A stretch of DNA of 64,000 nt from Candidatus Methylacidiphilales bacterium (GTDB lineage Bacteria; Verrucomicrobiota; Verrucomicrobiia; Methylacidiphilales; CAZTYG01). This document shows positions 1,966-30,538 of the stretch, one piece after another. A program made the position numbers and the translations under genes. Within the stretch, counting starts at the first letter, position 1; each line of letters starts with the position of its first letter. The notes below the pieces were generated by a model. The model saw only the letters and a list, made by a program, of their open reading frames with translations. It ran no database searches and was not told where the DNA came from. The DNA lies in assembly GCA_033875315.1 (NCBI GenBank), contig JANRJG010000003.1:1-64000 (forward strand), written 5' to 3'.

Positions 1966-4500
1966 TCAGCGGATCTCCGCAGCCTCACCGCCCGTCCGTT
2001 GAATCTTGATCCGGCTGCGACCGTCCTCACCCGGACTGAAGACCAGGGTGTCTTTCTGATCGGGCCATTGGATGGTCAACTTGGTGCGCTCCGGATTCCA
2101 AGCCGTTTCGGGAAGCGGGTCACCTTCACGGTGGGGGTAAAGAAGCACCTTGAATCCGGGATTGGCGGAACGGCTGGTGAGATGGAGCCGGTTGAGGGTG
2201 ATATCGGGTTGGGGCGGATTCTTGACAGCGACATCCTCCACTTTGGCCACGGTTTCCTCGAGCTTGTCGACATCGAGGACACGAACCAGCAGCGAACGGG
2301 GTTTGTCCGAGGGCAGGGCGAGGGAGACATCAGGCGAGTCGCTTTCGCGCAAAGTGATGTCGGCGGCTACGGTGTTCTTGTCATTGGAGGTCAGGACGGT
2401 CGAACCAAGAACCACATCCCGTGGCATCGTCATGCCCCACACGTATTCACGCGGGGTGTCATCGATCTGGAGATCATCGACGATCAAACCATATGGGCGC
2501 GGACCGCGGACGAGGCCGACGGTACGGAAGGCCTTCTTGACGTTCAATCGCTGATACCAATCCCCTTTGTTGGTCTCCCCGGAACCATGATTTCCCGATC
2601 CCGGTTTTTCCGAGGAATACCAGTCGGGCAACGAACCGATGGGCAAATCCATCCAGGGCAGTGGCGAGGGTGTGAGGCGGAAGAAGTTGTAGGATTTGGT
2701 TTTGGCAGTCAGGGCAACGGAGCCGGCGGGCTTTTCCAGGCCGGAGGTTTGGTAGTTCCATGGATTGGAAAGGTCGGTGGCTTCAAAGGTGGCCAGGGCA
2801 TGGTCCGTGAATCCGACACAGCGGGCTTCGGCGGTGGAGGGACCCATGCCATCGACCATGAGGACGGAACGCATGATGGGCATGTATTGTTCTTTGATCT
2901 GCCGCGAGGACTGGTAGATGCTCCAAAAACGGCCCTGGCCATAAAAATTGAAATGGGAACGGTCACAGTATTGATGGCCACCGGGAATGGCGCGGTTGAG
3001 GTAGTTGAGGTAGACGGCATCCTTGGACCAAGCGGAGCGGGTGAACAGATTGCAGGTATCCTCACTGAAGTAGGTCAGGGGCCGGTCCCGGGTGATGAGG
3101 GCGTATTCCTCGGCCTCGGGGGTGTCGGCGATGTCGGAGGCAAAGATGGCGCAACAGAGGGCATCCATCGTTGAGAAGGGATGGCGGGTGTTGATGGTCT
3201 TGGAAGCGACATTTTCGTAGTCGCTGGAAATCTGGTTGCGGTAGATGAAATTACCCGCGGCATCGCCGGGGAAGAGGGTGTGATACATGAGGACATCGGC
3301 ATTGCGGGCGATTTTACTGCCGGATTTGGCCATGGAGTCGCAGAAGGTGAAGTGATTGCCCCAGGGACTCATGGCAGCGATGAAATAGTTGTGGTAGGCC
3401 GAGCGGACGCTGCTGTGGCCGAGTACGTTCAAGTCTTTGCCGCGTTTGGCCAGAATGACCATGTGTTCGATGAACATGAAATTCTTTCCCCAGCCCTCGA
3501 AGGCTTCGCCCGTCGGATAGATGGCGTTGATGAAGTTGATCTGGGCGTCGGCAAAGCGCTTGAAGGCACCCGGGTCGTAGCCGGGCTCGCCTTCGATGGC
3601 ACAGATGGCAAAAAGGGCGCGGCAGCCCCAGGAAATCCAGTTGCTCGGACCGGCGTGGAGCGCTTGCAGGGTCTCGCAGCCGATGCCGGACATGCCCGAG
3701 GTCGCCCGAACCAGGACCTTGCGGACCTGGTCCCGTTGCGCGTGGGTCATGTAGTTGTAGGCGAAGTCGTAATCGAGACCGAGGGTGAACTCGCGGGTCG
3801 GCCCCTGGGAAATCACCCGGGCATCCTTGAGGCTGGAGGCGTTGCGCGGATTGGCCAGGTTGGCCTCCAGTTCCTTCTCGGCGATTTTGGAAAATGTGGT
3901 GATGGCGGAGGCGACCTTTCTGCCCCCTTCCTGGTCGTCGTCGATGAGGCAGCGGAAAGCCTCATACATCAGACAATAGGCGACATTGCTGTCGAGTTTT
4001 TCCACTTCCTGGCCGGCGACGAGGGACTGGTACGACTGAGCGAACTGGGCCTTCGGACCGGTGATCGTTTTCTCCAAATGCGCGCGGATACCGGCGATGG
4101 CCGCCCGACCGGCGTTGGTTTCAGTGAGGCGCTTGCGCAGATCGGGCAGGTCGTCGGCATTGAAAATCACACGGGGGTGGACGCCGGCGGGTGGCGGGGG
4201 CTTGACGAAGCGCTTATCCAGTCCGGTTTCGTCCAGAACCATCCGCACCGGTTTGCTGAAATAGGTGCGGATTTCGTCTTCGGTGTAACCGAAGTTGTTG
4301 CGCCGTTTGAGCAATTCCGGATCCAACTGGCGCTCAACCACGCGCACATCCTTGCCGAGGGATGCGGCGGCCGAGGGAATCAGGTTCCCCTGGGAGTCGC
4401 GGATCCCGGGATAGGTTCCCGCGGGCAACTCGGCCCCAGCGGGTGCGGCCAGCAGGGAAAAACCGACAAAGAGAGGGAGGAAGATCAATCCATCTTTCAT
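1966..4500 (-). CDS. Heparinase II/III-like secreted protein (paralogue A)
   Basis: An 844-residue exported protein with signal peptide MKDGLIFLPLFVGFSLLAAPAGA. It has the layout of heparinase II/III-type polysaccharide lyases: an N-terminal (alpha/alpha) toroid (~100-450) and a C-terminal beta-sandwich. It shares with four other proteins of this cluster the entry motif PAGVHPRVIF, the toroid motif NWxxW...AIEGEPGYD, the sandwich motif VRGPRPYGLIVDD, and a C-terminal strand LVFSPGEDGRSRI. The sandwich active-site motif, HxHxDxGxF in classical members, reads HQYCDRSHF here (~507-515), so the second histidine, equivalent to a zinc ligand in Pedobacter heparinase II, is tyrosine. Lyase activity is therefore plausible but not certain. 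It lies 18 bases downstream of an SGNH hydrolase gene in the minus-strand cluster. Confidence 0.8.
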   Translation of the reverse strand: MKDGLIFLPLFVGFSLLAAPAGAELPAGTYPGIRDSQGNLIPSAAASLGKDVRVVERQLDPELLKRRNNFGYTEDEIRTYFSKPVRMVLDETGLDKRFVKPPPPAGVHPRVIFNADDLPDLRKRLTETNAGRAAIAGIRAHLEKTITGPKAQFAQSYQSLVAGQEVEKLDSNVAYCLMYEAFRCLIDDDQEGGRKVASAITTFSKIAEKELEANLANPRNASSLKDARVISQGPTREFTLGLDYDFAYNYMTHAQRDQVRKVLVRATSGMSGIGCETLQALHAGPSNWISWGCRALFAICAIEGEPGYDPGAFKRFADAQINFINAIYPTGEAFEGWGKNFMFIEHMVILAKRGKDLNVLGHSSVRSAYHNYFIAAMSPWGNHFTFCDSMAKSGSKIARNADVLMYHTLFPGDAAGNFIYRNQISSDYENVASKTINTRHPFSTMDALCCAIFASDIADTPEAEEYALITRDRPLTYFSEDTCNLFTRSAWSKDAVYLNYLNRAIPGGHQYCDRSHFNFYGQGRFWSIYQSSRQIKEQYMPIMRSVLMVDGMGPSTAEARCVGFTDHALATFEATDLSNPWNYQTSGLEKPAGSVALTAKTKSYNFFRLTPSPLPWMDLPIGSLPDWYSSEKPGSGNHGSGETNKGDWYQRLNVKKAFRTVGLVRGPRPYGLIVDDLQIDDTPREYVWGMTMPRDVVLGSTVLTSNDKNTVAADITLRESDSPDVSLALPSDKPRSLLVRVLDVDKLEETVAKVEDVAVKNPPQPDITLNRLHLTSRSANPGFKVLLYPHREGDPLPETAWNPERTKLTIQWPDQKDTLVFSPGEDGRSRIKIQRTGGEAAEIR

Positions 4501-4518
4501 GGGGTTGTCCCGTCCGGT

Positions 4519-5940
4519 TCAAGGAAGGGGCTGACCCCAGGCGTCGAGCAGATCGCCGAGAACGATGATCTGGCCGACAGAAAAACTGTTTTCTTTGTAT
4601 TTGTCCGGATTGTTGCGGAAATCGGCGTCGGTGTTCTTTTTCTTGAGCAGTTCTTCCTTGGGGGGGACTTCGTCGGTGAGTGTCCAGACGGCGGTGTGGT
4701 CACCCATGGGAACGGCGGGCAGCGGGGCGCCGACGTAAACATGGGCATTGGCGTAAACCGTGAAGAGGACTTTTTTGACCGGGGCGCCCCCGTCCACGCT
4801 GACCGTGATGACACCGGAGTCGGGACCTTCCATGCCCTTGAATCCGATGTGGGTTCCACGGAATCGCACGGTCATCGAGGCTCCCGGCTGGATGGTGCGG
4901 TAGAGGAAAGGGAACCAGTTGTAGAAGTTTTTCCCGAAGCGGCGGCAGGAGGGGCCGTTGGCGGCGGTGAGCTTGGCCCAGTCGCCCTTGAATTCGGCCC
5001 TTCCGTCGGCGGCGATGGTCTTGGCTTTATCCCAGGGCAATGGGGACAGTGGCTCCGGCAGCGGACGCGGGCCGGTTTCGCCCGGTGGGATCTGGGACAA
5101 CTGTTGGAGACCGCGGATGGCGGCCTCGCCGTTCATGACATGGCCCTTCTCGCTGGGGTGGCTGCCGTCGTTGCTGAAGATGATTTTGCCGTCGGCAGTC
5201 AGTCCGTCGGGGGTCTTGGGGGCCTGGTGGATGAGCTTGCCCTCGGCGAAGAGTTTGGCGGCTTCCATGCCCATATTGATCGAGGGCAGGTTGTAATGGG
5301 CCGCCACACGATCGTGCAGAGAAATGGAATTGGAGCAAATACCCTGTTGGGCTTTTTGCAGCATTTCGGCGGTCACCGTGTAGGCAAAGCAGATGTCGAC
5401 GTCAGGGTTGGCCGTGCGGAGCTTGCGAATGATTCCTTCCAACGCACCCGTGACTTCCTCCGGGCGGTCCCGCACATCGCTGCCGTCGTTGAGGGAAAAC
5501 TCGATGAAGACCACATCGGGTTTTTTGGCGACGAGGTCATCGTCCGCGCGGAAGACCCCGACTAGGGAACCGGAGCCGCCGACGCTCGCGTTGACCAGTT
5601 CGAACTTGGCCTTGGGAAAGGTTTTGCTGAACCAATCCATGGTCATGGTGCGCCAGCCGGGGGCGGCCGTGATGCTGCCTCCGTAGTAGCCGAGGATGAC
5701 CGTTTCGCCGCGGTTGATTTTGGCAAAGAGACGGGGCAACCCGCCGCGGGCATGGAGTTCGGCCGCAGGCATGGGTTCGGTGGGCGACTTGGCCTTGGCG
5801 GCTTCGGCGTTGGCCGCCGTGTAATCCTTTTCGTGCCCGATGATTTCCGTGCTGGGAGATGGAGAATTCGCCGGGGGGCTTTGCGACCAACCACAAAGGG
5901 GGCCGACAATCAAACAGGAGAGAACAAGGAAGTAGCGCAT
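4519..5940 (-). CDS. Secreted SGNH/GDSL-type hydrolase
   Basis: A 473-residue protein. The ATG at 5940 (MRYFLVLSCLIVGPLCGWSQ) gives a good signal peptide; an in-frame start at 5973 only adds a polar leader. The catalytic domain shows the SGNH blocks: GYYGGSIT (nucleophile serine; GGS instead of GDS), a glycine-rich NASVGGSGS, FIEFSLNDGS (the Asn block), and DGSHPSEKGH near residues 253-262 carrying the Asp/His pair. Residues ~310-470 form a separate beta-rich domain (MTVRFRGTHIGF, VSVDGGAP, VWTLTDE) that may bind carbohydrate. Such enzymes usually de-acetylate polysaccharides or oligosaccharides; here the neighbours are heparinase-like and GH2 genes. The 128-base gap upstream is the longest within this half of the cluster and carries a TTGCA repeat pair, so an internal promoter is possible. 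Confidence 0.82.
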   Translation of the reverse strand: MRYFLVLSCLIVGPLCGWSQSPPANSPSPSTEIIGHEKDYTAANAEAAKAKSPTEPMPAAELHARGGLPRLFAKINRGETVILGYYGGSITAAPGWRTMTMDWFSKTFPKAKFELVNASVGGSGSLVGVFRADDDLVAKKPDVVFIEFSLNDGSDVRDRPEEVTGALEGIIRKLRTANPDVDICFAYTVTAEMLQKAQQGICSNSISLHDRVAAHYNLPSINMGMEAAKLFAEGKLIHQAPKTPDGLTADGKIIFSNDGSHPSEKGHVMNGEAAIRGLQQLSQIPPGETGPRPLPEPLSPLPWDKAKTIAADGRAEFKGDWAKLTAANGPSCRRFGKNFYNWFPFLYRTIQPGASMTVRFRGTHIGFKGMEGPDSGVITVSVDGGAPVKKVLFTVYANAHVYVGAPLPAVPMGDHTAVWTLTDEVPPKEELLKKKNTDADFRNNPDKYKENSFSVGQIIVLGDLLDAWGQPLP

Positions 5941-6028
5941 CGTGGTCTGACCTTGGAACCGCCGTGCCATCATGGAGACGGGGATCTTCCCAAAATGCTG
6001 GATGCAACTATTTAGAAGTCAATGGCTG

Positions 6029-6068: not shown

Positions 6069-8894
6069 TCAGGGTGAATCGAGTTGAAGGGTGGTGGGTC
6101 CCAGGAGACCGGTTCTACCTTCTGATCCGGCCTGAAGCAGGACGGTCAGGGTTCGGCGCTGGCTCGAAGGGGGAACGGCAAAGCTCAGATCGTCAGCGGC
6201 GGGTTGATCTTTTTGGGCTACCCTTTGGCCATCGAGAAAGACCTCGGCCCGGCCGGAGACCTTCCTGAGCAGCGCCCGACCTCCCCTGCCCTGGAGGGCT
6301 TTCCAAGGAGTGAAGGACGAGCGGTACAAAGCCCATTGTCCTTCGGGGAGTTTTTGCGCGTTGCCCGGAGTGACGCGGGACCATGAATTCATATCCGCAT
6401 CGGACATGGTCTGCAGGGGGTCCGGGCGCTCCGCAGAAGGAGGCGACATGCGCCAGCCGGACATGTTGAACAGGGGCTCGGTGTGCGGAACGGACGGGAA
6501 GGGGTCGGTGTTCCTGACCTCGAGGCGGATCTCTGCGGACTTCAGGCCCGGGGCGGAGGCGCTCACCACGACTAGCCCGGAACTGTCCGGGGCGGATTGC
6601 ACGAGGAGCTGGGCCAGACCATGGAACAGTTTCCGCATCGGACCCTTTTCCGGGTCATGGCAGTTGTGGTCTCCGTTCCCGTGGCCGATGTTCCGTCCGG
6701 GTCCTTCCACCGAAAAGGTCACCGGGGCATCGGCACCGGGGACCACGCGGCCGGCGTCATCGACACCCGAAACGGTGATGGGCAGGGTATCGCGCCCATC
6801 GCCGAGAAGGAAATCCCGATCGGGCTCAAGCCTCAGGGCGGTGGCCGGGCCGGTGGTTTCCACCTTGGTCCGGATGACTTCTTTGCCCGCGGTGGTGCCC
6901 ACGGCCTCGAGGGTGCCGGGTTCATAGGGCACCTCCCACTCGACGTAATCGTAGGGCGGGCGGGGTTTTTCGCCGAGCGGGCGGCCATTGAGCGATAACG
7001 CGACCTTCTCCGCGTTGGTCATGGCGATGACCCGGATGGGCTGCCCCTCGCGCCCTGCCCAGTTCCAATGGGGGGCCAGAGCGAGCACGGGACGGTCCTT
7101 GATCCAATTGGAACGATGAATGTGATAGGCCGTCTTGGGGAATCCGCAGAGATCGAAGATGCCGAAGACGGAAGAGACCGATGGCCAGGAGAGACGCTGC
7201 GGCTCACCGCGGTAGTCGAAACCCGTCCAGACAAAGCCGCCCGCGAGGAAGGGACGCTCGGCGATGGCCTTCCAGGCGGCGCGGTGGGATTTGCCCCAGG
7301 CGGCATGCTCCTCGTCATAAGAAGCGATGACGTTGCGCTTTTTGTCGGTTTCGTACTCGCCGCGGGTCATGAAGGCCGAGGTGTCCTCGGAACTGGTGAT
7401 GGGGAGGTCCGGGTGCTTCTCATGGAAATCATCGTAGGAAATATCGACGTAATTGAAGCCCATGACATCGACGGCCTCGAAGACGCCGTGTTCGTTCATC
7501 ATACCCCCGTTCATGGCGGCGGTGACCGGGCGGGTGGCGTCGAGCTTGCGGACCTCGGCAGCCATGCGGCGAACCATTTCACGGCCCTGCTCGGTGCCCT
7601 GCATCGGTTCCTCGTTGAAGACCGACCAAAGGAAGACGCTGGGGTGGTTGCGGTCGCGGAGCAGCATGGTGCGCAACTGGCCGAGGTACTCCGGGGTGTG
7701 GTTGAAGTTGCGGTTTTCGTCCATGACAAGCATGCCGAGGCGGTCACAGGCCTCGAGGAATTCTGGGGCGGGCGGGTTGTGGGCGGAACGGTAGGCATTG
7801 CTGCCCAATTCCTTGAGCTTACGGACGCGGAAGTCCCAGAGGGAGTCGGGTACGGCCACCCCCACCCCGGCGTGGTCCTGATGGTTGCAGGTGCCTTGGA
7901 GTTTGAGCGGTTTGTCATTGAGGAAAAATCCCTCTTTGGCGTCGAAGCGCAGCGTGCGGAACCCGCACCGGGTCGAAGTCGAATCGGCCGTGCCCTGATT
8001 ACGTTTGACAGTAGCTTTGACGGTGTAAAGAACCGGATCGTCCACGGACCAGAGTTTGGGGGTTCCGCTGGGCGTAAGTGGTAAGGAGACGGTGGTCTGC
8101 CCGAGCGCCGGGACGGTGACGCTGGATGATTCCCGGAGGACCGGCTTGCCCGTAGGGTCGAACAACTCGGCACTGACTTCCACCGCCGCACCCTGGGTTT
8201 CGATATTCGACAGGGTGACCTCCACGGGAACCGACCACCGGCCCTTGGGATCACGGACCGGATTGGCATAAAGTCCGTAGGTGGCGATGTGCACCGGGCT
8301 GCGTTTGACCAGCCAGGTGTGGCGGTAGAGGCCCGCCCCCTCATACCACCAACCCTCCATGGGATTGGCATCGACACGCACCACGATGGTGTTGAGTTGG
8401 TCGCCGTAGGTGGCGATGGGAGTGAGGTCGATCTGGAACGGAGTGTAACCGCAGAAGTTGCGGTGGACGAGGAGGCCATTGACCCAGACGGTGGCGTGGG
8501 TGGCGATGCCCTCGAACTGCAATTCGAGATGCCTGCCCTTGTCCGCGGGGTCCAGTCGGAGGTAGCGGCGGTACCAAGCGACGCCGCGCGGGCGGTAGCC
8601 CTGGGAGATGTTGGCTTGGGGATCGAAAGGGCCTTCCACGGCCCAGTCATGGGGGAGATCCAGGCGGCGCCAGTCGCTGTCGTCATAACCCGGGGCGGCC
8701 GCACCCCAGGCTTTGCCTGCTTTGGCATTTTCATAGCTCGGGCCATGGCCGGTGATGACGGGCATGGGGATGTCGCCCAAGTAGAAGCGCCAGTCTCCAT
8801 CAAGGGAAAGCCGTTGGCGCGCCGTGTCAGCGGCATGGAGCACGGAGGCGGAGGCAATGTTCATGACGAGGAGTGTGTGGATCAGATATTTCAT
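6069..8894 (-). CDS. Secreted GH2 beta-galactosidase-type glycoside hydrolase
   Basis: A 941-residue GH2 enzyme with signal peptide MKYLIHTLLVMNIASASVLHA. The ATG at 8894 overlaps the stop of the preceding SGNH gene (ATGA), which argues for this start over a TTG six bases upstream. The N-terminal jelly roll has the typical RLSLDGDWRFYLGD and DDSDWRRLDLPHDWAVEGPF. The Ig-like domain and TIM barrel follow, with HNPPAPEFLEACDRLG, the acid/base in SVFNEEP (Glu428), and a probable nucleophile Glu503 in ITSSEDTS. Beyond the barrel lie Ig-like domains (GVDDAGRVVPGADAPVTF) and a C-terminal jelly-roll portion (AQKLPEGQWALYRSSF). Family knowledge points to a retaining exo-beta-galactosidase; other GH2 specificities cannot be excluded. 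Full-length and apparently intact. Confidence 0.92.
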   Translation of the reverse strand: MKYLIHTLLVMNIASASVLHAADTARQRLSLDGDWRFYLGDIPMPVITGHGPSYENAKAGKAWGAAAPGYDDSDWRRLDLPHDWAVEGPFDPQANISQGYRPRGVAWYRRYLRLDPADKGRHLELQFEGIATHATVWVNGLLVHRNFCGYTPFQIDLTPIATYGDQLNTIVVRVDANPMEGWWYEGAGLYRHTWLVKRSPVHIATYGLYANPVRDPKGRWSVPVEVTLSNIETQGAAVEVSAELFDPTGKPVLRESSSVTVPALGQTTVSLPLTPSGTPKLWSVDDPVLYTVKATVKRNQGTADSTSTRCGFRTLRFDAKEGFFLNDKPLKLQGTCNHQDHAGVGVAVPDSLWDFRVRKLKELGSNAYRSAHNPPAPEFLEACDRLGMLVMDENRNFNHTPEYLGQLRTMLLRDRNHPSVFLWSVFNEEPMQGTEQGREMVRRMAAEVRKLDATRPVTAAMNGGMMNEHGVFEAVDVMGFNYVDISYDDFHEKHPDLPITSSEDTSAFMTRGEYETDKKRNVIASYDEEHAAWGKSHRAAWKAIAERPFLAGGFVWTGFDYRGEPQRLSWPSVSSVFGIFDLCGFPKTAYHIHRSNWIKDRPVLALAPHWNWAGREGQPIRVIAMTNAEKVALSLNGRPLGEKPRPPYDYVEWEVPYEPGTLEAVGTTAGKEVIRTKVETTGPATALRLEPDRDFLLGDGRDTLPITVSGVDDAGRVVPGADAPVTFSVEGPGRNIGHGNGDHNCHDPEKGPMRKLFHGLAQLLVQSAPDSSGLVVVSASAPGLKSAEIRLEVRNTDPFPSVPHTEPLFNMSGWRMSPPSAERPDPLQTMSDADMNSWSRVTPGNAQKLPEGQWALYRSSFTPWKALQGRGGRALLRKVSGRAEVFLDGQRVAQKDQPAADDLSFAVPPSSQRRTLTVLLQAGSEGRTGLLGPTTLQLDSP

Positions 8895-9934
8895 TGGCAA
8901 GAGTGTGCGGAGGCCAGCAGTCGGGCCAGCGCGGCCCCCATGAGAATATGCCCCTCATCCGAGGGATGGACAAGATCGCACTCCAATCCGTCCGCGTCCG
9001 GCAAAAGGGCCGTGCCGTCCATGAACCGCACCTGTGGATGATTGATGGTGGCCACCAGGCGGGGGACGATGGCATTGAAAAGAGGCGTGCGGAGGGTGTC
9101 ATCGTTCTGTGCCCGGGAGTGGAATGCCCGGTTGAGAAAGATAGGGGTGACGTAGACCGGTTTGCCGGGATGGGCTTGGTGGAGGGTGGTGACCAAGTGA
9201 CGGGCACGCGACTCAAATTCCTCCGGCGTGGCCCAACCGGTCATGTTGACTCCCAACTCCAGAAAGGCGGCATCCCAATCCTGCAGTGACGCCAAGAAAT
9301 CCACCATTTCCGGTTCGCACATGCAGGAGCCTGGAATGGCCTTGCAGAGCAGATCCATTCCTGTGGCGCGTGCTGCCTGTTGGAGGTAGGCATTGGAAGG
9401 GTGGAAGGCATTGGCCCCGTAGCTGATGGAAGATCCGTAGGCCAGCAGGGTGGTTGACGGGACTTCCTCCGCCCGCGGCGGACGGAGGTCGTGGCCGAAT
9501 GATTCCACACCGTGGTAGCAGGCCAGCGCATCGTGGTGGAACAGGATGCGCCAGACCCGGGGGGCGAAACGGCGGCGAGGAAAGATGTCAGGCTCCACTT
9601 GGCCAAAAAAGGGCGGATCCTCCAGGAACAAGGATGTGACGGATCCCGGCCTGAGCACATGGTGCGAATGCGCGTGGTCCCCCCGGTAAACGATCAAGGA
9701 GGTCTCCTGTTCGAGGACCGAGAGATAAATCCTCACAAAGGGGCCGCGCGTGATGAAGCGGATTTCACAGCCAGCCGCCCTCTGGGAAAAAAATCGTCCG
9801 CGCGAATGGTTTTTAAAACCCAGACGGTTGGCCAGAGCCGTAGGAAACCGCAGCAACTGCAGACCTCCCGAAGCCGGGTGGGATTTGAGTTCCTCCACAT
9901 TGTGGAAAAGAACTTGGTCGTGGATCAGCGACAT
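8891..9934 (-). CDS. SGNH/GDSL hydrolase, two-domain, no signal peptide
   Basis: A 347-residue protein starting at ATG 9934, with a GAGGCAGG ribosome-binding-like stretch just upstream; an in-frame TTG at 9958 is the alternative. No signal peptide is visible, unlike most neighbours. Residues ~1-150 form a beta-rich N-terminal domain of the type found before SGNH domains in carbohydrate esterases. Then LLAYGSSISYG holds the nucleophile serine, FLELGVNMTGW the Gly/Asn blocks, and DLVHPSDEGH near the C-terminus the catalytic Asp and His. It is most likely a cytoplasmic deacetylase acting on imported oligosaccharides, though a non-classical export route is possible. Its stop codon overlaps the GH2 start by four bases, indicating translational coupling. 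Confidence 0.8.
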   Translation of the reverse strand: MSLIHDQVLFHNVEELKSHPASGGLQLLRFPTALANRLGFKNHSRGRFFSQRAAGCEIRFITRGPFVRIYLSVLEQETSLIVYRGDHAHSHHVLRPGSVTSLFLEDPPFFGQVEPDIFPRRRFAPRVWRILFHHDALACYHGVESFGHDLRPPRAEEVPSTTLLAYGSSISYGANAFHPSNAYLQQAARATGMDLLCKAIPGSCMCEPEMVDFLASLQDWDAAFLELGVNMTGWATPEEFESRARHLVTTLHQAHPGKPVYVTPIFLNRAFHSRAQNDDTLRTPLFNAIVPRLVATINHPQVRFMDGTALLPDADGLECDLVHPSDEGHILMGAALARLLASAHSCQ

Positions 9935-9975
9935 ACTGGAACCTGCCTCATGGTTCAACGGACAAATGCAGAAGC

Positions 9976-12141: not shown

Positions 12142-12175
12142 GGGATTTGGCTTCGTACGGATGAGGGTTCTTTTT

Positions 12176-14488: not shown

Positions 14489-14499
14489 AGTGATGGGGA

Positions 14500-22400: not shown

Positions 22401-22758
22401 GCGCTGGCACGCGTCCGACCGGGCGCACTCCCTCGCTGCTGAACTTCACCCGGGAGGAACCGTAGTCCCGAGGCTTGAACTGCGTCCATGGCAGAGGATC
22501 TTTGGAATGATAGGACCAGACCTGCTTATCCCGGTAGGCAGAGGCCTCCAACAAGGGATCGAGGCCGGAGGCGGAGACTGAAGGCGCAGGGGTCGACACC
22601 TCGGGTCCCAAAGCAGCGGAGGGCGGGGTGGTGGATGGATCTTGCGCGGCAGGGGTGGCCGGCGTCGTGTTCGCAGGTGGTGGCTGACAGGACGCTAGGG
22701 CTAGTAAAAGGATGCAGCAGGAACAGCGGCAGAGCCGAGCGAATTGGGACTCAATCAT
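19417..22758 (-). CDS. Heparinase-like lipoprotein with C-terminal LamG-like domain (paralogue C)
   Basis: A 1113-residue lipoprotein: the leader ends in LLLALASC, a lipobox, followed by a long Pro/Thr/Ser tether. PAPGVHPRIFFSPEDLPALRKRL opens the heparinase-like toroid (NWATFSYWVYDLMAIEGEPGF), and VRGPRPYVLVIDDV marks the beta-sandwich. The active-site motif is degenerate: HPYPDRNGI (~543-551) in place of HxHxDxGxF, losing the second His, the Gly and the Phe. After ~860 comes a jelly-roll that looks like a LamG/concanavalin-type glycan-binding domain (FTVSCWLKTRSGPF, WTHVVFSSDGSTLSSYRNG, ARWSWGKTFVLGGKS). It could be a surface-anchored glycan-binding pseudoenzyme or an altered-specificity lyase. 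Its ATG overlaps the GH43 stop (ATGA), so the two are translationally coupled. Confidence 0.8.
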   Translation of the reverse strand: MIESQFARLCRCSCCILLLALASCQPPPANTTPATPAAQDPSTTPPSAALGPEVSTPAPSVSASGLDPLLEASAYRDKQVWSYHSKDPLPWTQFKPRDYGSSRVKFSSEGVRPVGRVPAPGVHPRIFFSPEDLPALRKRLKEDRAGQEAWKNILAWSHALKLTYDEKADYAQPDWANGGFHVRGRFVDLHRIGGYNPKREDYYSILASGGRPQTYEKNSPALFFKPGAAEAFRCLIEEDKAAAEVLAKATITAIKLEQERRAANDKPVKEGEPPKPSTGRTDACALGFIYDFIYNYLTPEQKKIIHEELVLLSAWADNYGSFNNAEASRSNWATFSYWVYDLMAIEGEPGFNDLKYLALYRGWRNFYTYSFFDSGAAYEGEGKLLFGLDAAVVMDRVAHKYRLEPLTQHPLVRAYYGKFSAYAMLPTRDNFAVFDILGSIKGGFTTPHDLVVARYLYPNDKTTDFVYRAMVQDDYKELPHGLHSLAHQAITSAIFATAYTPEVQPEKLNIGNTFFCGQRALLMTRSSWDREATFLTMHTRGASGGHPYPDRNGIMLTGKGRPWITIPSKDQGPWACSTVIIDEAGQDTSTPARVVDFADQPLATFMTGDAKYCWDWVWSSASKTTDGRDIRREDVEKDMVERGMSWELVNQSFNDFAWTQVDQPVYRQPLKFRNSWIAPDGVLTPYLRQVNTPVLRSFRTAGLVRGPRPYVLVIDDVERDGLPARYDWNLTLMPDVVEARGGTGELQPGDIVLAGNASLDPSGALKTGEPGLLIRVLNAEGTRAPHRIELREKVNLLTLSTRAAAPGFKVLLHPFRGGEALPQTEWNADRASLQVSFVDQKDVLTFAPSPEGRTVLGIQRDGKMVLDMKKTVPALEDPGSTAITEELRRIPALLEVLKKEGYDPLRLPGFIAGWEFDRAVDGAFSPLPGSVAAAIPIPLGERTFTAGMNGRQAVVVGPEGIGGPLGFATEMKGQPFTVSCWLKTRSGPFMGSYLNVDGVIGSEFIQGTMRHQFLRTLKDGWPSSMLSSWTHVVFSSDGSTLSSYRNGRRMAAVPLDSAARWSWGKTFVLGGKSQYGDAEVAAQSVHFYNTAMDAAAVERLYVWQKFSTVPVAH

Positions 22759-24299
22759 AGGGTTTCAATAGTAGGATTTGCAATCTCTTCAAACCATGCG
22801 AATTCCGCCCAAGTGGAGGAATCCCGGCCAGAGCCGGTAGCATAAAGGGCCGTGAGGTTTCCGATGAAACCCCCGGCTAGCTCCGTGGACTGGTGGCGGA
22901 CCTCGGAGGCACCCAGTTCCTTCCAACCTTCGGGCAGACGGACCTCAAACCGCCAATATGCCTTGTCCGACCCGTCCCATCCTGCGGAGACCGCCAGTTC
23001 AACCGGGCCTTCGGGCAACGCATGCCATTCCGATTCTGCACGCAGCGAACCGCAGCGTCGCGCAAAGCGCACTCCCCTCCCCGCTGCGCCTATGCCCATT
23101 TCCAGGGCGGACCAGTGGCGTTCATTATAATGAACTACCAAACCCGCGCGATCGCCGGTGTCGGCAGGCTTGAAATCAAGCAAAGTCGCAGCACGAAACG
23201 AGTGGTCCCGGATTCTGCGCCCAAGAAAAGCCAGCGGCTCGGGATCATCCAGGCAGGGAGGCGCGCAGCGCAAGGAAAGGCTACCCGGTGTGCGGACCAG
23301 AGACCAGGCATCCTGCCGCGGTGTGCGGCGATGGATCCACCCGGGATCCGGGAACGGTTCATCAAATTCATCACGGAAGCGGATTCCCTCGACCACCGCA
23401 GTAGTTGAATGAGCAAAGGGAACTGGAAGCCTCATCGGTAGGGGTAGTGGAACGACGGGCCAGCCATCGCCATCCCAATGCACGGGTGCGAGGCAGGTCT
23501 CGCGTCCTAGGTGATGCATGGGCGGATAGCCAAGCGGGCGGATCGCCAGGAATACCATCCACCAATCGCCCGATTCCAATTCCACCCAGTCCGCATGCCC
23601 GGTGGCCTGCAAGGGGTGATCCAAACTGCGGTGGGACCCAATCGGGTTCCGCGAACAAGGTTCATAAGGTCCCAGGATATCCCGGCTGCGTGCCACCGTG
23701 ATCATATGGCCGTATTCCGTGCCCCCTTCCGAAATCAACAGGTAGAACCAGCCATCGCGCAGAAAGAGGTGCGGACCTTCGGGATATTTCCCTCCGGTTC
23801 CTTTCCAAACAAGGGACGGGGCATCCAGCAGGCAACCGCTTTCGACATCCAAACGTGCCAACCAGATACCCTGTTGGTCGGGCGCGGAAACCGTTAACCA
23901 TGCCTCACCCCGATAGAAGAAGAGGGAAGGATCTATCCCTTCAATCGCAATGGGCAGGGGATCGGACCATGGCCCCTCCGCCCTTTCGGCTTGTATGATG
24001 AAATTGCCAATGCCAGACACGTCGGTGCACACCAAATAAAAGCGGCCGCCGTGGAACCGGATCGTGGGGGCAAACAGCCCCTGCGAAGTGGGCGTGCGGC
24101 TGAGATCGATCTGGCTGCCCCGGTCAAGGGCATGGCCGATGGGCCGCCAATCCACCAAGTTGGTGCTGTGGTGCAGGGGCAGGGCGGGGAAAAATTCAAA
24201 CGAACTGTTCACCAGATAGAAGTCCCCTCCGACGCGGCAAATACTGGGATCGGGATAGAAACCCGGAAGCACCGGGTTTTTGAAAGTGGCTTCATTCAT
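22755..24299 (-). CDS. GH43 beta-xylosidase/alpha-L-arabinofuranosidase, probably cytoplasmic
   Basis: A 514-residue GH43 enzyme from ATG 24299; an in-frame start three codons upstream is possible. The five-bladed beta-propeller shows all three catalytic acids: general base Asp17 in GFYPDPSI, pKa-modulating Asp123 in GIDPSLF, and general acid Glu174 in YPEGPHL. A C-terminal beta-sandwich (~330-510) with FRAATLLDFKPADTGDRAG and HWSALEMG is typical of beta-xylosidase-type subfamilies of GH43. No signal peptide is present, so it probably acts inside the cell on pentose-containing oligosaccharides, matching the GPH symporter encoded at 57.5 kb. It is the only clear pentosidase in the window. Confidence 0.9.
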   Translation of the reverse strand: MNEATFKNPVLPGFYPDPSICRVGGDFYLVNSSFEFFPALPLHHSTNLVDWRPIGHALDRGSQIDLSRTPTSQGLFAPTIRFHGGRFYLVCTDVSGIGNFIIQAERAEGPWSDPLPIAIEGIDPSLFFYRGEAWLTVSAPDQQGIWLARLDVESGCLLDAPSLVWKGTGGKYPEGPHLFLRDGWFYLLISEGGTEYGHMITVARSRDILGPYEPCSRNPIGSHRSLDHPLQATGHADWVELESGDWWMVFLAIRPLGYPPMHHLGRETCLAPVHWDGDGWPVVPLPLPMRLPVPFAHSTTAVVEGIRFRDEFDEPFPDPGWIHRRTPRQDAWSLVRTPGSLSLRCAPPCLDDPEPLAFLGRRIRDHSFRAATLLDFKPADTGDRAGLVVHYNERHWSALEMGIGAAGRGVRFARRCGSLRAESEWHALPEGPVELAVSAGWDGSDKAYWRFEVRLPEGWKELGASEVRHQSTELAGGFIGNLTALYATGSGRDSSTWAEFAWFEEIANPTIETL

Positions 24300-24354
24300 C
24301 GATCGCACGTTTCCCTTAACGGTTTAAAACAGTGGATAGGAGTGGCCGGCTTCA

Positions 24355-27153
24355 TCAGTCTGAAGCAAGGATTTGGGAGCCTCCCCGCTGCACGGTGAAG
24401 CGGGTCCTTCCGGCAGGATCGGTGGTGGAAAAAGCGAGTGTGTCTGTCTGGTTGGGCCACTGGATCGTGGTGGTGGCTTTGGTGGCATCCCAGCTGATTT
24501 TCGGGAGGGGCTCTCCGATCCTGAAGGGGATCAGCGCGATGCGGGAGTTGAGGGCGGTCCCGCGCCGGCTGACGTATAGTCGGGTGCGGGTGATGATCTG
24601 GGTGGCTTTGTCCGCGGTGTAGCTCCGCACGTCGAGACGGATGGGTTGCTCGGTCGCCCTGGAGAAATTCCACAACTGGGGTGCCGCGGTTACAGGAACG
24701 TCAAGCAGGACCACCAGCAGGGCGGGCGTGCCGTTGGGAGATTTTTGAACCTCGGTCAATCGCCACTGATCCCCGCCTTCGGCCTTGACCAGAACCGCGG
24801 AGGCGGGATTGCCGGCGGGAAATTCGATATCGGCGAGGCGCACGCTGTTGGGGACCTGCATGACCCAGTCGAAGTCGTGATCCCGGCCGTCCCCCTTGTC
24901 AACATCGTCGAGGATGAGGACATAAGGACGCGGGCCGCGAACGAGGGCGGCGGTGCGGCAGGCGGACTTCACGGGGTTGGCGGAAGCCACGCGCATCGTG
25001 GGCCCCCAGTTTTGTTTGAAGTAATGGTCGCCCCAGATGCGCATTTTGTAATTCTGTGTTCCACGGAAAAAGGCGACCACTTCGGGGTCGGTCTCCGGGG
25101 TGATCTTCCAGTCTTTGGCGTCGGGGATGGTCCACTGGAATTGGGTCGGACCCACCCAGCCGTGGTTGTAGGCGGCGGAGATGTCGGCCGAGGCCACAGC
25201 GCCGGATTCGGCCAGAAGGGAGCCAAGGAATTTGACCCGCGGCGGGTAGGCCACGTCCGCGAGACCACGGCCGCCGATGCGGACGTTGGAGTGGTCATAG
25301 GAGAAACCGGATTTTGCCCCGGCCTCAACCGCCCACATCTCACCATCGGAGGCGAGGTAAAAATGACCGGCATCATGGTGTTGGTGGCCGATGGTGCTGA
25401 GATTGGCTCGGACTTCGAACATGAGGAAAAGCGCGTCGGTGCCAGGACCGGAACGGGTGACAAGAAGACCGTGGACGGGATCTGCGAAATCGAGGGGAAG
25501 TTGGATGGACGCGCGCGCCTTCGCCAGGTCACCCGCTCCGCTCCAATCCGCGCAGTCGTATGGAGTCGGGCCCATGGTGTGGGCGGGGGTGAGAGGAGTC
25601 AGTTTGCGCCAGTTGATGTTGGCCGCATTTTTGCCGGCGGATTTCGATAACGCCGCTTCAAGGGACTGCTGGTAATCACCGGGATTGAAGTTGGCGAGGC
25701 CGGGCCGATCCTGGCGCATGAGGAAGTTCCCCGCCGCGGCGATTTTGCCGCCGGGATAAAAGGCGGTGAAGAAGTGGCCGTAGGCGAAGTTGGCATTACC
25801 CCATGTTCCGTTGTTGACGTTGTATTCGCCCGACGGGACCACGCGCTGGGCCTGTGCGAGGGGAAGCTGGCGAAGGTGGGGATGACCGAACTGGTTCTCC
25901 CCCCGGCGGGCGAGGGCGATGGCGGTGAGCATGGCGTAATGAAATCCGGCGCCAATCTTGCCGTTGCTTTCAAAGATCGTGCCTTGGGGGCTGATGCCCC
26001 ATTGCAGGTAGCCCTTGAGCGTGCGCAGTGCGGCCGGTTGAATGTCCGGGTCGTAGCCCTTCTCGCCTTCAATCGCCAGGGCCGTGAGATAGTGTTCGAG
26101 GTCCCAGCCGGTCCAGTTGGTTTCAGCCCAACGGGCGGGGCCGTTCATTCCGTAGGCGAGACGACCGGAGGTGGCCGAGGCCACGGCGTGACGGAGGATG
26201 TCCCGTTGTTCCTCGTTCATCCAAGGCGCGGCGAGGTCGTAGCAGAAAGCCAGGTTGTTGCCCCCGGCGACACCGAAGATGGCCCGCCAATAGTCACGGG
26301 GGGCGAGCTGACGTTGATGCTGCTCGGTGGCGTAGGCGTCGATGAACGGATTGCGAAGGCGGTAGTAGTTGGCGATCGCGGTGGCCGTCTGGCGTCCACG
26401 CTTGGTGTCGCCATCGAGAAGGGCCTGGAATGCCGAGGCGGCGAGCAAGTTAGGCAGGTAGGCGGTGTGAAGGGTGTCGGGGAGCGCCTGCTTGTAGCCA
26501 ACGAACCAATGGCGGGGCGGGATGACGAGGGTGATGGAGCTGACTTCCTTCGGCGGCTCCGGGGTCAAAAACTTCAAGTCGGCCGTGTCCCCCGCCATGA
26601 GTTTGGCGTAGATTTTTCCTTCGTCGGAAGCGGGGTTATACAGAGTTTGTTCCAGCAGGAAGCGGGTTTCAATCAGGGCCTTCTGACCCGTTTTGCTTTG
26701 TTCAAGGCGGCGCTTGATCAGGGGTATGTCGCCCGGACTGAAGAGAATGCGTGGATGGACACCGGGCGCAGGGACGGCAGATCCGAGCAGGGTGGGGTCG
26801 AAGCCCGTGAGGTCATGGGCCGATGGAGGGATATCCGGGTAGACCGTTTCCGGGCCTTGGTAGAGTTTGATCTGCGCGGGGGTGGCGAACTCGGTCCAAT
26901 GTCGCTGTTCGCGCAGCGCGGGGATGGACTGCCGCAAGGCTTCGGGATCGGCGAGGGTGGCGGGAGTGTCCAACCGGGAAGATTTTGCGGGCTGGGCTTC
27001 TGCGGCAAATGGCGAGGCCGCGTACAAGAAGAGGGCGACCAAGGTGAGATGAACAAAGCGGGTGGACGGCGGGAATGTTCCTGCCGTGCTGGCGGGCAGG
27101 CTTGCCGTCCGATCACTTTTTTGCGGGATGTCAGGAGTCATACGGGTATCCAT
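24355..27153 (-). CDS. Heparinase II/III-like secreted protein (paralogue D)
   Basis: A 932-residue protein with a long N-region before the hydrophobic export signal (FVHLTLVALFLYAASPFAAEA, residues ~33-53). An N-terminal segment with the phrase TPAQIKLYQGPETVYPDIPPS precedes the common motif PAPGVHPRILFSPGDIP. The toroid has ETNWTGWDLEHYLTALAIEGEKGYDP and FESNGKIGAGFHYAML. The beta-sandwich motif GHQHHDAGHFYL (~587-598) retains HxHxDxGxF with an acidic EMWAVEAGAKSG after it, the strongest match to a functional heparinase II/III active site in the cluster. VRGPRPYVLILDDV and a final strand (TLAFSTTDPAGRTRFTV) complete the architecture. It is most similar to the adjacent upstream paralogue E, so the pair looks like a local duplication. 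A 118-base gap lies upstream. Confidence 0.85.
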   Translation of the reverse strand: MDTRMTPDIPQKSDRTASLPASTAGTFPPSTRFVHLTLVALFLYAASPFAAEAQPAKSSRLDTPATLADPEALRQSIPALREQRHWTEFATPAQIKLYQGPETVYPDIPPSAHDLTGFDPTLLGSAVPAPGVHPRILFSPGDIPLIKRRLEQSKTGQKALIETRFLLEQTLYNPASDEGKIYAKLMAGDTADLKFLTPEPPKEVSSITLVIPPRHWFVGYKQALPDTLHTAYLPNLLAASAFQALLDGDTKRGRQTATAIANYYRLRNPFIDAYATEQHQRQLAPRDYWRAIFGVAGGNNLAFCYDLAAPWMNEEQRDILRHAVASATSGRLAYGMNGPARWAETNWTGWDLEHYLTALAIEGEKGYDPDIQPAALRTLKGYLQWGISPQGTIFESNGKIGAGFHYAMLTAIALARRGENQFGHPHLRQLPLAQAQRVVPSGEYNVNNGTWGNANFAYGHFFTAFYPGGKIAAAGNFLMRQDRPGLANFNPGDYQQSLEAALSKSAGKNAANINWRKLTPLTPAHTMGPTPYDCADWSGAGDLAKARASIQLPLDFADPVHGLLVTRSGPGTDALFLMFEVRANLSTIGHQHHDAGHFYLASDGEMWAVEAGAKSGFSYDHSNVRIGGRGLADVAYPPRVKFLGSLLAESGAVASADISAAYNHGWVGPTQFQWTIPDAKDWKITPETDPEVVAFFRGTQNYKMRIWGDHYFKQNWGPTMRVASANPVKSACRTAALVRGPRPYVLILDDVDKGDGRDHDFDWVMQVPNSVRLADIEFPAGNPASAVLVKAEGGDQWRLTEVQKSPNGTPALLVVLLDVPVTAAPQLWNFSRATEQPIRLDVRSYTADKATQIITRTRLYVSRRGTALNSRIALIPFRIGEPLPKISWDATKATTTIQWPNQTDTLAFSTTDPAGRTRFTVQRGGSQILASD

Positions 27154-27271
27154 GAAATCGGAAGCACCAACAGACGGCCCCGGGCCGGGGATAGATTCCG
27201 CCGGACCGCAGCATTCATGCGAGGTTTCCGATCATTCTGTTCAAGCTCACCGTGCCAAGGATGTCAGCCGA

Positions 27272-30200
27272 TCAGGGTCCGAGAATGGTTTTGCCGCCCC
27301 GGCGGATGATCAGCCGGGTGCGCGGGTCGTCACCTTGTGTGAATGCCAGTTCGTCCACCTGACCTTCCCAGTTCACCCTGGCCAGACCCTTGGCGGGATC
27401 GTAGTCGACTTTGGGCAGTGGTCCGCCAACACGGACCGGCAGGAGGAGGACGCGGAAGGAGGCTTGGGCGGCCTTGTGGTGGATGACCAAGCGGTCCATG
27501 TATTGCGTAGCACCCTTGCGGTCTTTCTGGCCCTCGACGGTCTCCGTGGCCAAAAGCGGCATGGACTTCTCAGGTTGTGTCATGCCGAGGGCATATACGA
27601 GCACCATGGGGTCCCCCGTCTTGGGCTCAAGCACGGGCTTGCCCGGGGGAGCCTTCAAGTCGGTGTCCTGGCCGGTGGTGGCCAGAGCAATGGCGTTGGC
27701 TGGAAGTCCCTCCACCTTGGCCTGCCAGACGCCACCGTTGAGCATGGCCGTCCACTGGTAGTGGCGGACTTTCTCGTCCTTTTTCAAGTCATCAACCACA
27801 AATCCATAGGGATGGTCCCCGCGTACGAGACCGACGGATCGGAAGACGTGCTGCATGGGATTAAACGGAGCACGGCTGGTGGCGATGTAATTGCCGTAAG
27901 TGTAGTTCGACCACCATGGACGGAGTTTGTAGCGGGCCGTGCCGGCGAAGATGCGTGCGATCTGCGGGCTGGGGTCGAATTCCCAGCCCAGGGCACGCGT
28001 GGCTTCCGGCCAGACCTGGGGTGGTTGCGTATTCCACCTCCAGGAGTAGGCGTAAGTCAGATCCGCGGAAGCCATGGCGGCTTGTCCACAAACCAGCGAA
28101 CCCAGGTAAGTAGCGGCGGCGTTGTAACCATTGACCACACCATCAATACCTTCGGCCTGGGACTGGCCATCCACTTGGACCAGATTGTGGACATTGCCGG
28201 TATACCACTGGGTGAAGGGCGACTCGGTGATCCAGTTCACGCCAAGGGCGGAGAAGTGGAACATGCCGGCATCGGCGTGATGGTGGCCCGCCCCGAGGTA
28301 GTGGTTGGGGCGCACCATCATATTCATCCAAGCGGCGTCCTTTTCAGGGGATGAGTAGGCGGAAAACACCCCATGAACCGGGGCATTGAAATCCAACGGC
28401 AAACCGAGGGAGGACCGTTCGGTAAACACCGCGTCCCCATCAAAGAGGATGTTGCGCGTGAAACCGGGATAGGTCGGGCTGGGCAGCCGGAGGCGCGGGG
28501 TTTTCTCCACCAGGGCCCGATAGGCAACAGGATCGAATTTGCTTTCCGGCAGCACGAAACCCACGGTATCGGCGGGTTGGGTCCGAAGGGGGATATCGGT
28601 GGAGATCAAATAATCAGCCAGTCGATTGTCAGGATACAAGCCCTTGAACTGGTTGACCAACGACATGGACAGCTTCTGGCGGCTGTGGGGCGAATACTGC
28701 GTGCCGCTGTTGACTATGACCCGTCCGTCGGGCGAGGTCATGAGGGCCTGGCCCTCGAGGAGCTTGCGCCAATGAGGATGGGCCAGGAGGTTTTCCCCTC
28801 GCCGGGCGGCGATGACCATGGAGAGCAGCTGGAATTGGAATGCCCCCGGATTCTTGCCGTTGCTTTCAAAGACGACCCCGGAAGGGTCGATGCCCCACTG
28901 GCAGAAGGCCCGTGCGCTTTCCAGACCGGAAGCGTAGGCCTCGGCATCAAAGCCCGGCAAGCCCTCTATGGCCGCCACGGCAATGAAATGAGGCAGGTCC
29001 CAGGCCATCCAATTGACGTCGCGGAAACGGACCGGGCCATCCTGCCCGTGCGAGCGGCGTCCATAGGTGGCCTTGGCGATGAAGCGCCGCATAAGGTCCT
29101 TTTGTTCGGGTGTCATCCATTTCCCCGAGAAATCAAGGGCCGGGCCGAGATTCATGTGTGCGACCAATCCATGAATGTTCCGCCAGTGGGTGCGGGCACC
29201 GTAGGCGTTCAATTCCAGCAATGTCCCGTCAGGATTGCGCAGGGAGGAACCGAACTCGGAATCGCTGATTTTAAGAAAAGCGTCGAGGAGGGGTTCGCGC
29301 AGCTTGTAGTAATTTGCGACAGCCGTGGCGGTGCGCCGCCCGAGTTCATCATCATCGTTCAGAAGCGCGTAAAGGGCGAGCGCGCTGAGGCATTCGGGCA
29401 CATAAGCAATGTGGGAGTTGTAGATGCCTGGTTTCTGCCCCTTGAACGTGTGGCCCGCCATGAAATCCGCCTTGCCGGCCGGCACATCCCATTCCAGGCC
29501 TTCCAGATTTCCGGCGGCGAGTTTTTCGAAAATAGCTCCGTCACTGGTCTTGGGATCGAGCCAGCTTTTCTTGAATAGGACCTCCATCTCGATGAGGGAT
29601 TTCTGACCGCTGATGGTGTTTTTGATGCGGCGGCGAAGTTCGGGCAGGTCCTTCGGACTGAAAAAGAGCCGTGGATAGACCCCCGGGGCGGGCACTTCGG
29701 ATCCGAGGAGTGTCTTGTCCATTCCTTTGTCGTCATAGGCCGAAATAGGAACCGGTTCCCATTCGGTTTCCGGTCCATTGAGCAGCGCCATCTGCTCCGG
29801 GGTGACCTTGACATGGGCGGTCCACGGTTTTTGGCGGGCTCCGTTCGGGATGAACTTTTCGGCAATGGAAGGATCGGCGAATTTCTCGGGGGTATCGAAG
29901 AGCGCGATCACCGCGTCCATGCGCGGGCTTCCAGAGTCCGGCCAGACGGGAGCCGAGGCACCGAGGAAAACCAGGCCCGATGGGTGCGAGAAGACACCAA
30001 GACCCGCTGCCCGTGCAACTTCCTCCAGCGCCACGTAGCTTTCACCACGCACCGTGAGGGAGGCAGAGCCCTGGGGAATTCCTCCATCCCTGGAGCCCGG
30101 CAGCAAAGTAACCAGCTTTGAAAGCACCGAGGCAGGAACGATTTCAGAGGGCGCGTAGACCCATCGGTCGGCAATCATGGCCAGATCGGCAGGCACAGGG

Positions 30201-30538
30201 TTTGGTTTGGGATCCTTGACAGAGAGCACGGGAATGAAGGATGCAGGCACGAAGAGCTTTCCTTCTTTCCACACAGCCTCGGCCCGCAGCAGGTTCTTTT
30301 CACTCAGGCGTACCCGGTGTCCCCGGACATAGGCATAGCGGCTTCCGGGGAACACGGCTATTCCGCCACGGATGATTTCAAGCGCGGATGCATCCGCCGA
30401 ACGGGTGTAAGGAAGACCCTGATCCTGGGGCGGTGGTTCCGGGGGGGGCGGAATGGGTGTGGGTGACTGGGCCTGTAGAGCAGATAGCAGGACAAAGCCG
30501 AGAATGCCGAGTGTGTGAAAGATGCGGGTGATTTTCAT
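27272..30538 (-). CDS. Heparinase II/III-like protein with copper-amine-oxidase-N-like domain (paralogue E)
   Basis: A 1088-residue protein from ATG 30538 (signal peptide MKITRIFHTLGILGFVLLSALQA). Residues ~45-215 are extra compared with the other paralogues. They resemble copper amine oxidase N-terminal repeats, with short beta elements such as VRGHRVRL, KLFVPASFIPVL, SLTVRGESYVALEEVARAAGLGV, a module usually linked to cell-wall or glycan binding. The segment TPEQMALLNGPETEWEPVPIS and PAPGVYPRLFFSPKDLPELRRRI open the lyase-like part. The toroid has VNWMAWDLPHFIAVAAIEGLPGFD, and the sandwich motif GHHHADAGMF (~747-756) keeps HxHxDxGxF. VRGDHPYGFVVDDL and the closing ELAFTQGDDPRTRLII follow. 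It is likely an active lyase with an accessory binding module. It sits 22 bases downstream of the 1298-residue beta-helix gene. Confidence 0.83.
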   Translation of the reverse strand: MKITRIFHTLGILGFVLLSALQAQSPTPIPPPPEPPPQDQGLPYTRSADASALEIIRGGIAVFPGSRYAYVRGHRVRLSEKNLLRAEAVWKEGKLFVPASFIPVLSVKDPKPNPVPADLAMIADRWVYAPSEIVPASVLSKLVTLLPGSRDGGIPQGSASLTVRGESYVALEEVARAAGLGVFSHPSGLVFLGASAPVWPDSGSPRMDAVIALFDTPEKFADPSIAEKFIPNGARQKPWTAHVKVTPEQMALLNGPETEWEPVPISAYDDKGMDKTLLGSEVPAPGVYPRLFFSPKDLPELRRRIKNTISGQKSLIEMEVLFKKSWLDPKTSDGAIFEKLAAGNLEGLEWDVPAGKADFMAGHTFKGQKPGIYNSHIAYVPECLSALALYALLNDDDELGRRTATAVANYYKLREPLLDAFLKISDSEFGSSLRNPDGTLLELNAYGARTHWRNIHGLVAHMNLGPALDFSGKWMTPEQKDLMRRFIAKATYGRRSHGQDGPVRFRDVNWMAWDLPHFIAVAAIEGLPGFDAEAYASGLESARAFCQWGIDPSGVVFESNGKNPGAFQFQLLSMVIAARRGENLLAHPHWRKLLEGQALMTSPDGRVIVNSGTQYSPHSRQKLSMSLVNQFKGLYPDNRLADYLISTDIPLRTQPADTVGFVLPESKFDPVAYRALVEKTPRLRLPSPTYPGFTRNILFDGDAVFTERSSLGLPLDFNAPVHGVFSAYSSPEKDAAWMNMMVRPNHYLGAGHHHADAGMFHFSALGVNWITESPFTQWYTGNVHNLVQVDGQSQAEGIDGVVNGYNAAATYLGSLVCGQAAMASADLTYAYSWRWNTQPPQVWPEATRALGWEFDPSPQIARIFAGTARYKLRPWWSNYTYGNYIATSRAPFNPMQHVFRSVGLVRGDHPYGFVVDDLKKDEKVRHYQWTAMLNGGVWQAKVEGLPANAIALATTGQDTDLKAPPGKPVLEPKTGDPMVLVYALGMTQPEKSMPLLATETVEGQKDRKGATQYMDRLVIHHKAAQASFRVLLLPVRVGGPLPKVDYDPAKGLARVNWEGQVDELAFTQGDDPRTRLIIRRGGKTILGP

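Follow-up and report, generated by a model that had tools for sequence, protein, structure and literature searches.

Solved enzyme families of the (alpha/alpha) toroid fold commonly use Tyr as an acid/base residue, and within this clan the parts played by Tyr and His depend on the uronate epimer (PMC11848413). In GAGase II, a member of polysaccharide lyase (PL) family 35, Asn192, Tyr246 and His401 are catalytic, while His403, Asp405, Asp421 and His457 neighbour the metal, and Ala mutants of these metal-neighbouring residues lose all or most activity (PMC12088678). The active site of the PL40 enzyme Uly1040 comprises Asn245-Trp246, Glu301, Tyr305, Asp358, His485 and His487, and the mutants Y305F/K/R, H485A, H487A and D358A are all inactive (PMC12915356). 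Here we describe five secreted, paralogous lyase-fold proteins, A to E, encoded in one operon of a Candidatus Methylacidiphilales bacterium (Verrucomicrobiota), on a stretch of 64,000 nucleotides (the window) that begins at base 1 of contig JANRJG010000003.1 (contig C3; assembly GCA_033875315.1). Judged by alignment with these enzymes, B alone resembles the described lyases throughout its active site, and Lys occupies the position of the catalytic Tyr in the other four. This exchange, missed by an earlier note made from the sequence of the window, is the main interest of the locus.

Five paralogues of one lyase fold

The window belongs to a metagenome-assembled genome (MAG) of 3.15 Mb that is 95.65% complete. 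As the earlier note had described, the five paralogues are encoded in the same direction, here the minus strand, within one operon; all of the open reading frames (ORFs) are present and their products are true homologues, B to E sharing 25-33% identity with A over the toroid and beta domains. To this account we add that other genes lie between the five and that the genome holds eight family members. A search of the genome with profile A1 recovered the five paralogues and three further members (E 5e-167, 7e-137 and 7e-95), the latter encoded outside the operon at C3:87207-89606, C2:2008-4179 and C18:37492-39498. Naming the five through Pfam or NCBIfam was dropped for want of a useful match: Hepar_II_III_C (PF07940) stayed below its curated cut-off (24 bits) in all of them, reaching 14 bits in D and giving no match of any kind in A, B, C and E.

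A two-domain fold, with an (alpha/alpha) toroid and an antiparallel beta-sheet domain, is well supported for A and B by their predicted structures. The AlphaFold models scored a pLDDT of 92.1 and a pTM of 0.92 for A and 90.1 and 0.90 for B, the A model being weaker at the active-site loop (block 331-340, mean pLDDT 79). Both models matched heparinase and alginate-lyase structures in Foldseek (E 1e-17 to 1e-21). PL15 gave the best match (E 1e-17 and 7e-21, respectively), then PL35, PL39 and PL21, and the matched structures included PL15, PL35, exoHep, dermatan sulfate (DS)-epimerase, PL39, PL21, PL12, PL33 and PL17 (E 1e-9 to 1e-21). These matches had only 9-14% identity and query-normalised template modelling (TM) scores near 0.5; none of the solved families is close to A or B. 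C, D and E were assigned to the toroid lyase clan by sequence homology only. C also bears a Laminin_G_3 (concanavalin A-like lectin) domain at residues 971-1097. In E, as in its orthologues (L046, L047, L133), the family match begins only near residue 185, so that they have an N-terminal extension (residues 40-280 of E) in common.

Lys replaces the catalytic Tyr in four of the five active sites

Catalytic and metal positions were transferred from the papers on PL35 GAGase II and PL40 Uly1040, and from DS-epimerase. In hidden Markov model (HMM) alignments, Tyr331 of B fell on Tyr246 of GAGase II (8khv; offset of 22 verified at His401, Asp405 and Asp421) and the Lys column on Tyr261 of DS-epimerase (offset verified at His450), while the GAGase II metal ligands were mapped by numbering.

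Aligned in this way, only B carries the full canonical active site, with N278, E327, Y331, D382 and H495 and the metal ligands H497/D499/D515/H525. Asn and the catalytic His are present in all five paralogues, the catalytic Tyr in B only, and Lys in A, C, D and E. By residue identity, the metal ligands (His, Asp, Asp/Glu, His) are complete in B, D and E, a set that the earlier note had treated as intact. That grouping does not hold, since D and E both have Lys at the catalytic Tyr and lack the equivalent of the base-activating Asp358 of PL40. D has N346, K399 and H590, with metal ligands H592/D594/E610/H621 and NGT where the Asp is absent; E has N526, K579 and H769, with H771/D773/E789/H801 and SGT.

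In A and C, three of the four metal ligands are gone. The residues of A are N287-W288, E335, K339 (at the catalytic Tyr), D388, H509 (the catalytic His), Y511, D513, Y529 and R544, and those of C are N331, K383, D435, H546, Y548, D550, I566 and C576; both proteins retain the Asn, Trp, Glu, Lys, Asp and catalytic His. The motifs around HxH (A GGHQYCDRSHF, B ASHEHSDRGHF, C GGHPYPDRNGI, D IGHQHHDAGHF, E AGHHHADAGMF) are exactly as the note had quoted them, including Tyr at the second His in A and C, and the loss of the metal site that it had proposed for these two goes further than it claimed. The Asp421-equivalent is Tyr in A and Ile in C, and the His457-equivalent is Arg in A and Cys in C; the Asp405-equivalent is retained in both (D513 and D550).

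Conservation, phylogeny and selection

Across a set of 166 homologues, the catalytic (first) His was present in every sequence (166/166), the Asn in 159 and the Glu four residues ahead of Tyr/Lys in 161. The column of GAGase II Tyr246 held Tyr in 63 sequences and Lys in 83. Lys was fixed in two large clades (83/83 sequences) from five phyla, namely Verrucomicrobiota, Lentisphaerota, Planctomycetota, Bacteroidota and Armatimonadota, and was found in all 22 HxY proteins. No report of such Lys-types was found in a search of open-access papers. The window genome also encodes L001, a distant heparinase-type protein with the ordinary Asn/Tyr/HxH set; hence, the Lys is not a quirk of the window genome. 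The family is patchy: of 388 genomes sampled from the whole phylum, 10 reach an E of 1e-40, but carriers hold 2 to 17 copies.

Both other variable metal ligands were gone in 73 of 85 non-HxH proteins, and all were kept in 56 of 81 HxH proteins. Fisher p values for this covariation (6e-21 and 1e-18) ignore relatedness and were not relied on; an independent-pair test gave about 4.4 agreeing versus 0.7 opposing pairs (median p 0.22), which is not significant. Within the A clade (16 sequences), K339, D388, H509, D513, Y529 and R544 were invariant and the Asn was replaced by Tyr in two rows, and the invariance points to a site that was rebuilt, not decayed. The C clade has Ile at the Asp421 position, and at the third ligand some of its members have Met instead of Cys. 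A further subgroup, with members at L040 (5138-9871), L116 (16398-21917) and L083 (2948-7810), has HEGSE in place of HxHxD and the Lys one residue earlier (ESIKG); its long C-terminal extensions are PA14- or lectin-like by eye, and it presents a third mode of site alteration.

Trees were built with the active-site columns removed, using FastTree (166 rows) and IQ-TREE (60 rows). In both, A grouped with C in one Lys clade and D with E in a second, and the Tyr/Lys state changed twice. Two separate origins of the Lys were not established, as a single Lys clade was also compatible with the data (approximately unbiased test, p-AU 0.40). HxY as one ancestral state common to A and C was rejected (p-AU 3e-36), which means that the Tyr at the second His has separate origins in the two lineages; in the wide set the HxH state underwent about ten changes. 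The NG86 ratios of nonsynonymous to synonymous substitution (dN/dS) against orthologues were 0.14-0.30 (A), 0.18-0.33 (B), 0.12-0.23 (C), 0.28 (D) and 0.15-0.26 (E), rough values given synonymous sites near saturation. A and C were no looser than B, and the idea that they are decaying copies was rejected on these grounds. Together, the fixation of Lys, the separate origins of the Tyr and the low dN/dS of A and C argue against decayed or purely binding proteins.

A B-type member was present in all 11 whole genomes that carry the family. A sits next to B in L112, L116 and three Lentisphaera genomes, and neighbouring pairs of C and E occur in L133 and L109 and of B and E in L158, L162, L173 and L176; in L173, genes for B, E and a glycoside hydrolase (GH) of family 88 lie inside 20 kb. 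A B-type gene in Zobellia adjoins SusC/SusD and a hybrid two-component sensor. A tblastn search of B against plasmids, in which annotated PL40-like neighbours were sought, returned no match.

Organization of the locus

The five genes belong to an operon-like minus-strand run of 16 genes, bounded upstream by a strong terminator (Table 1), in which neighbouring genes overlap or are separated by mostly short gaps of about 120 bp at maximum. Its layout is that of a locus for degrading a heteropolysaccharide that would be decorated, would contain uronate and is probably esterified. Four sulfatases are encoded far from the operon (contig C3, 143732-212779) and none within it, so that sulfation of the target polymer is not required.

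Table 1. Features of the operon-like gene run in the window, in order of position.
Position	Strand	Feature	Remark
289..1959	-	Secreted serine-hydrolase-like protein (GHSGG)	Predicted
1966..4500	-	Paralogue A, secreted toroid/beta-sheet lyase-fold protein	
4519..5973	-	GDSL/SGNH esterase	PF13472, 5e-14
6069..8900	-	GH2 glycosidase	
8891..9958	-	SGNH hydrolase	
9976..12303	-	Right-handed beta-helix protein	Weak GH141 insertion-domain match
12176..14488	-	DUF5703_N and GH95-type catalytic domain	
14500..17013	-	Paralogue B, lyase-fold protein	Sole canonical member; ORF open to 17634
17063..19396	-	GH95 glycosidase	
19417..22758	-	Paralogue C, lyase-fold protein	C-terminal Laminin_G_3
22755..24308	-	GH43 with GH43_C2	
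24355..27153	-	Paralogue D, lyase-fold protein	
27272..30538	-	Paralogue E, lyase-fold protein	ORF open to 30589
30561..34457	-	MBG/Ig-repeat protein	
34454..41191	-	Multidomain beta-helix protein	Ig, F5/8C and HYR domains
41125..43443	-	First gene of the run, 772 aa	No family match
43596..43625	-	Rho-independent terminator	13-bp stem and T-run; parts the operon from the upstream PEP-CTERM gene

The product of the first gene had no Pfam, NCBIfam or PDB sequence match and may be a further unrecognised enzyme; its homologues adjoin B-type genes elsewhere, and one that is 46% identical does so in L073/L159. At the other end of the run, the serine-hydrolase-like protein, without a Pfam or NCBIfam match, is a candidate for a new carbohydrate esterase family; about 14 further loci, including L133, L158, L162, L173 and L109, have a relative of it close to genes of the lyase family. 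Directly upstream of the operon, beyond the terminator, three large glycine/asparagine-rich repeat proteins with PEP-CTERM-like C-termini are encoded on the minus strand (43686-54357). An AraC-type regulator and a major facilitator superfamily (MFS) sugar transporter are encoded on the plus strand at 55102-59046.

Possible functions of the Lys-type proteins

On balance we lean, if only somewhat, towards B being a conventional lyase and A, C, D and E being re-tooled enzymes that act on different uronate linkages of one decorated polymer. The operon would then encode a secreted system for polysaccharide degradation in which a single lyase fold has been put to use five times. In B, the Asn-Trp pair would neutralise the uronate carboxylate, the metal- and Asp-activated His would abstract the C5 proton, and Tyr331 would protonate the leaving group. 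In A, C, D and E, Lys would take the place of Tyr as proton donor or acceptor; outside the toroid fold, the PL28 enzyme for iduronate (cited in PMC12915356) and an ulvan dehydratase (PMC8511951) offer precedents for Lys in uronate elimination. The His of A and C would be activated by Asp alone, the metal site having been dismantled and, in A, an Arg placed at the third ligand; in D and E the metal site would stay and the activating Asp would be gone. These four would most likely cut or process, by C5-proton abstraction, differing uronate linkages or epimers, and the GH2, GH43 and GH95 glycosidases and the esterases would remove side chains. As the roles of Tyr and His vary with the epimer in this clan, an acid/base swap would fit a polymer with several kinds of uronate linkage.

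The conservation of all five types across phyla suggests a working, re-tooled version of a known fold. The data themselves establish the fold, the pattern of active-site residues and how well it is conserved, the selection acting on each gene and the co-inheritance with B-type genes; from these we infer catalysis by the Lys-types, the role of their Lys, the type of reaction and the substrate. A division of labour on one polymer, as the earlier note had envisaged, is plausible from co-inheritance, although its split between active and altered members was misplaced. Tentatively, and with some reserve, we also propose that the Lys-types (83 sequences, five phyla) may constitute a large, unrecognised enzyme class of the toroid lyase fold with a Lys/His pair in place of Tyr/His, within which the A and C lineages separately became metal-free, their ligand positions being taken by Arg or neutral residues.

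Several points weigh against re-tooled lyases. The places of the Lys and Arg in space are taken from the alignment, and the covariation of the metal ligands is weak once relatedness is allowed for. Because Y305K, H487A and D358A of Uly1040 are inactive, a Lys-type could be dead if nothing compensates. GH88/105 and KduI are the usual steps after lyases, and neither was detected in the 95.65% complete window genome despite its eight toroid lyase-family genes. G042 and G407 likewise had no detected GH88/105 or KduI, and UxaC is present in the window genome and G042. In these three genomes the usual route for lyase products is absent or different; either the products are monomers, or other unsaturated-uronyl hydrolases act on them, or some Lys-types are non-eliminating.

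This missing route leaves room for the Lys-types to run another reaction, begun by C5-proton abstraction or directed at another bond, such as uronate C5-epimerisation, terminal-uronate dehydration or hydrolysis, which we consider rather unlikely. DS-epimerase ranks among the top matches in both sequence and fold, an unrelated dehydratase of the ulvan pathway uses Lys as the acid (PMC8511951), and NLR48, a PL28 lyase outside the toroid fold, is cited in PMC12915356 as using Tyr/Lys for iduronate. However, several genomes rich in Lys-types (G366, G386, G264 and Lentisphaera) do have GH88/105 and KduI, and the absence elsewhere may reflect gaps in the MAG or an exolytic route that bypasses GH88. 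It is unlikely that A and C, or the four Lys-types as a group, lack catalytic activity and serve as polysaccharide-binding proteins that hold the polymer for B. The inactive mutants of the PL40 relative (PMC12915356) would fit such a role, as would the lectin-like domain of C and the constant presence of Lys-types in genomes with a B-type. The earlier note had suggested altered or binding-only paralogues for A and C; binding alone is not favoured by their retained catalytic residues, by constraint equal to that on B or by the age and wide spread of their clades. The catalytic His is present throughout the 166 homologues and the Lys throughout the 83 sequences of its clades, the cavity Asn, Glu and Asp are also retained, and a binding protein would not need a His-Lys pair. 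Very improbable, in our estimate, is that the metal site of A and C persists through other ligands (Tyr, Cys and the retained Asp). The Asp405-equivalent is kept in both and C has Cys576 at the third-ligand position, but across the 16 sequences of the A clade neither the Arg at the third ligand (R544) nor the Tyr at the Asp421 position ever varies, and the C clade shows the Met and Ile noted above.

A to E offer a comparative set, from one organism, for how the fold could exchange its acid/base pair and lose its metal. The set may also reveal enzymes for uronate linkages without a known lyase.

Comparison with known lyase families

PL15 (Atu3025, 3A0O; exoHep, 6LJA) was the top Foldseek match of both models and the top profile match (5e-10). 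However, identity was 10-13% and TM about 0.5, and PL15 uses His311/Tyr365/His531, with no Lys. PL35 (GAGase II, 8KHV; GAGase VII, 8KHW) has the same toroid and two-layer beta-sheet (Foldseek TMt 0.65-0.70), and each of its residues Asn192/Tyr246/His401 and Mn ligands has a counterpart in B. Unlike the PL35 enzymes, with structures of about 580 residues, A, C, D and E lack the Tyr, and A and C lack the metal ligands as well. Profile matches to 8khv (E 1.7e-6 for A2 and 7e-6 for A3) had 10-14% identity, and the relation is at the level of the clan, not the family.

PL40 Uly1040 (9VTK) resembles B in its Asn-Trp neutraliser, the Glu four residues before the acid, the Asp-His-His-metal relay and a length of about 850 aa. 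For B, 9VTK ranked 17th in Foldseek (TMt 0.48, 10% identity); it was not among the Foldseek matches listed for A, and profiles A1, A2 and A3 did not match it at E<=1. Since 9vtk is a distant fold match, membership of PL40, suggested by the Asn-Trp motif, was rejected at the family level. At the position of the essential Tyr305 of Uly1040, A, C, D and E all have Lys, and each differs from PL40 in at least one further position.

The profile match to DS-epimerase (DSE, 6HZN) spans the toroid and HxHxD, with the Tyr261 column corresponding to the Tyr/Lys column; DSE, however, is an epimerase with 11-12% identity and has Tyr, not Lys. PL21 heparinase II, PL12, PL17, PL33 and PL39, all found by Foldseek, share the two-domain fold and the Tyr/His pair (PMC11848413). 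Unlike the Lys-types, all of these families use Tyr, and a structural metal is reported for most. Although the designed Tyr-to-Lys mutant of Uly1040 is dead (PMC12915356), the same exchange is naturally fixed in 83 of the 166 homologues, as it is in four of the five paralogues; this set is large, conserved and inherited together with canonical members.

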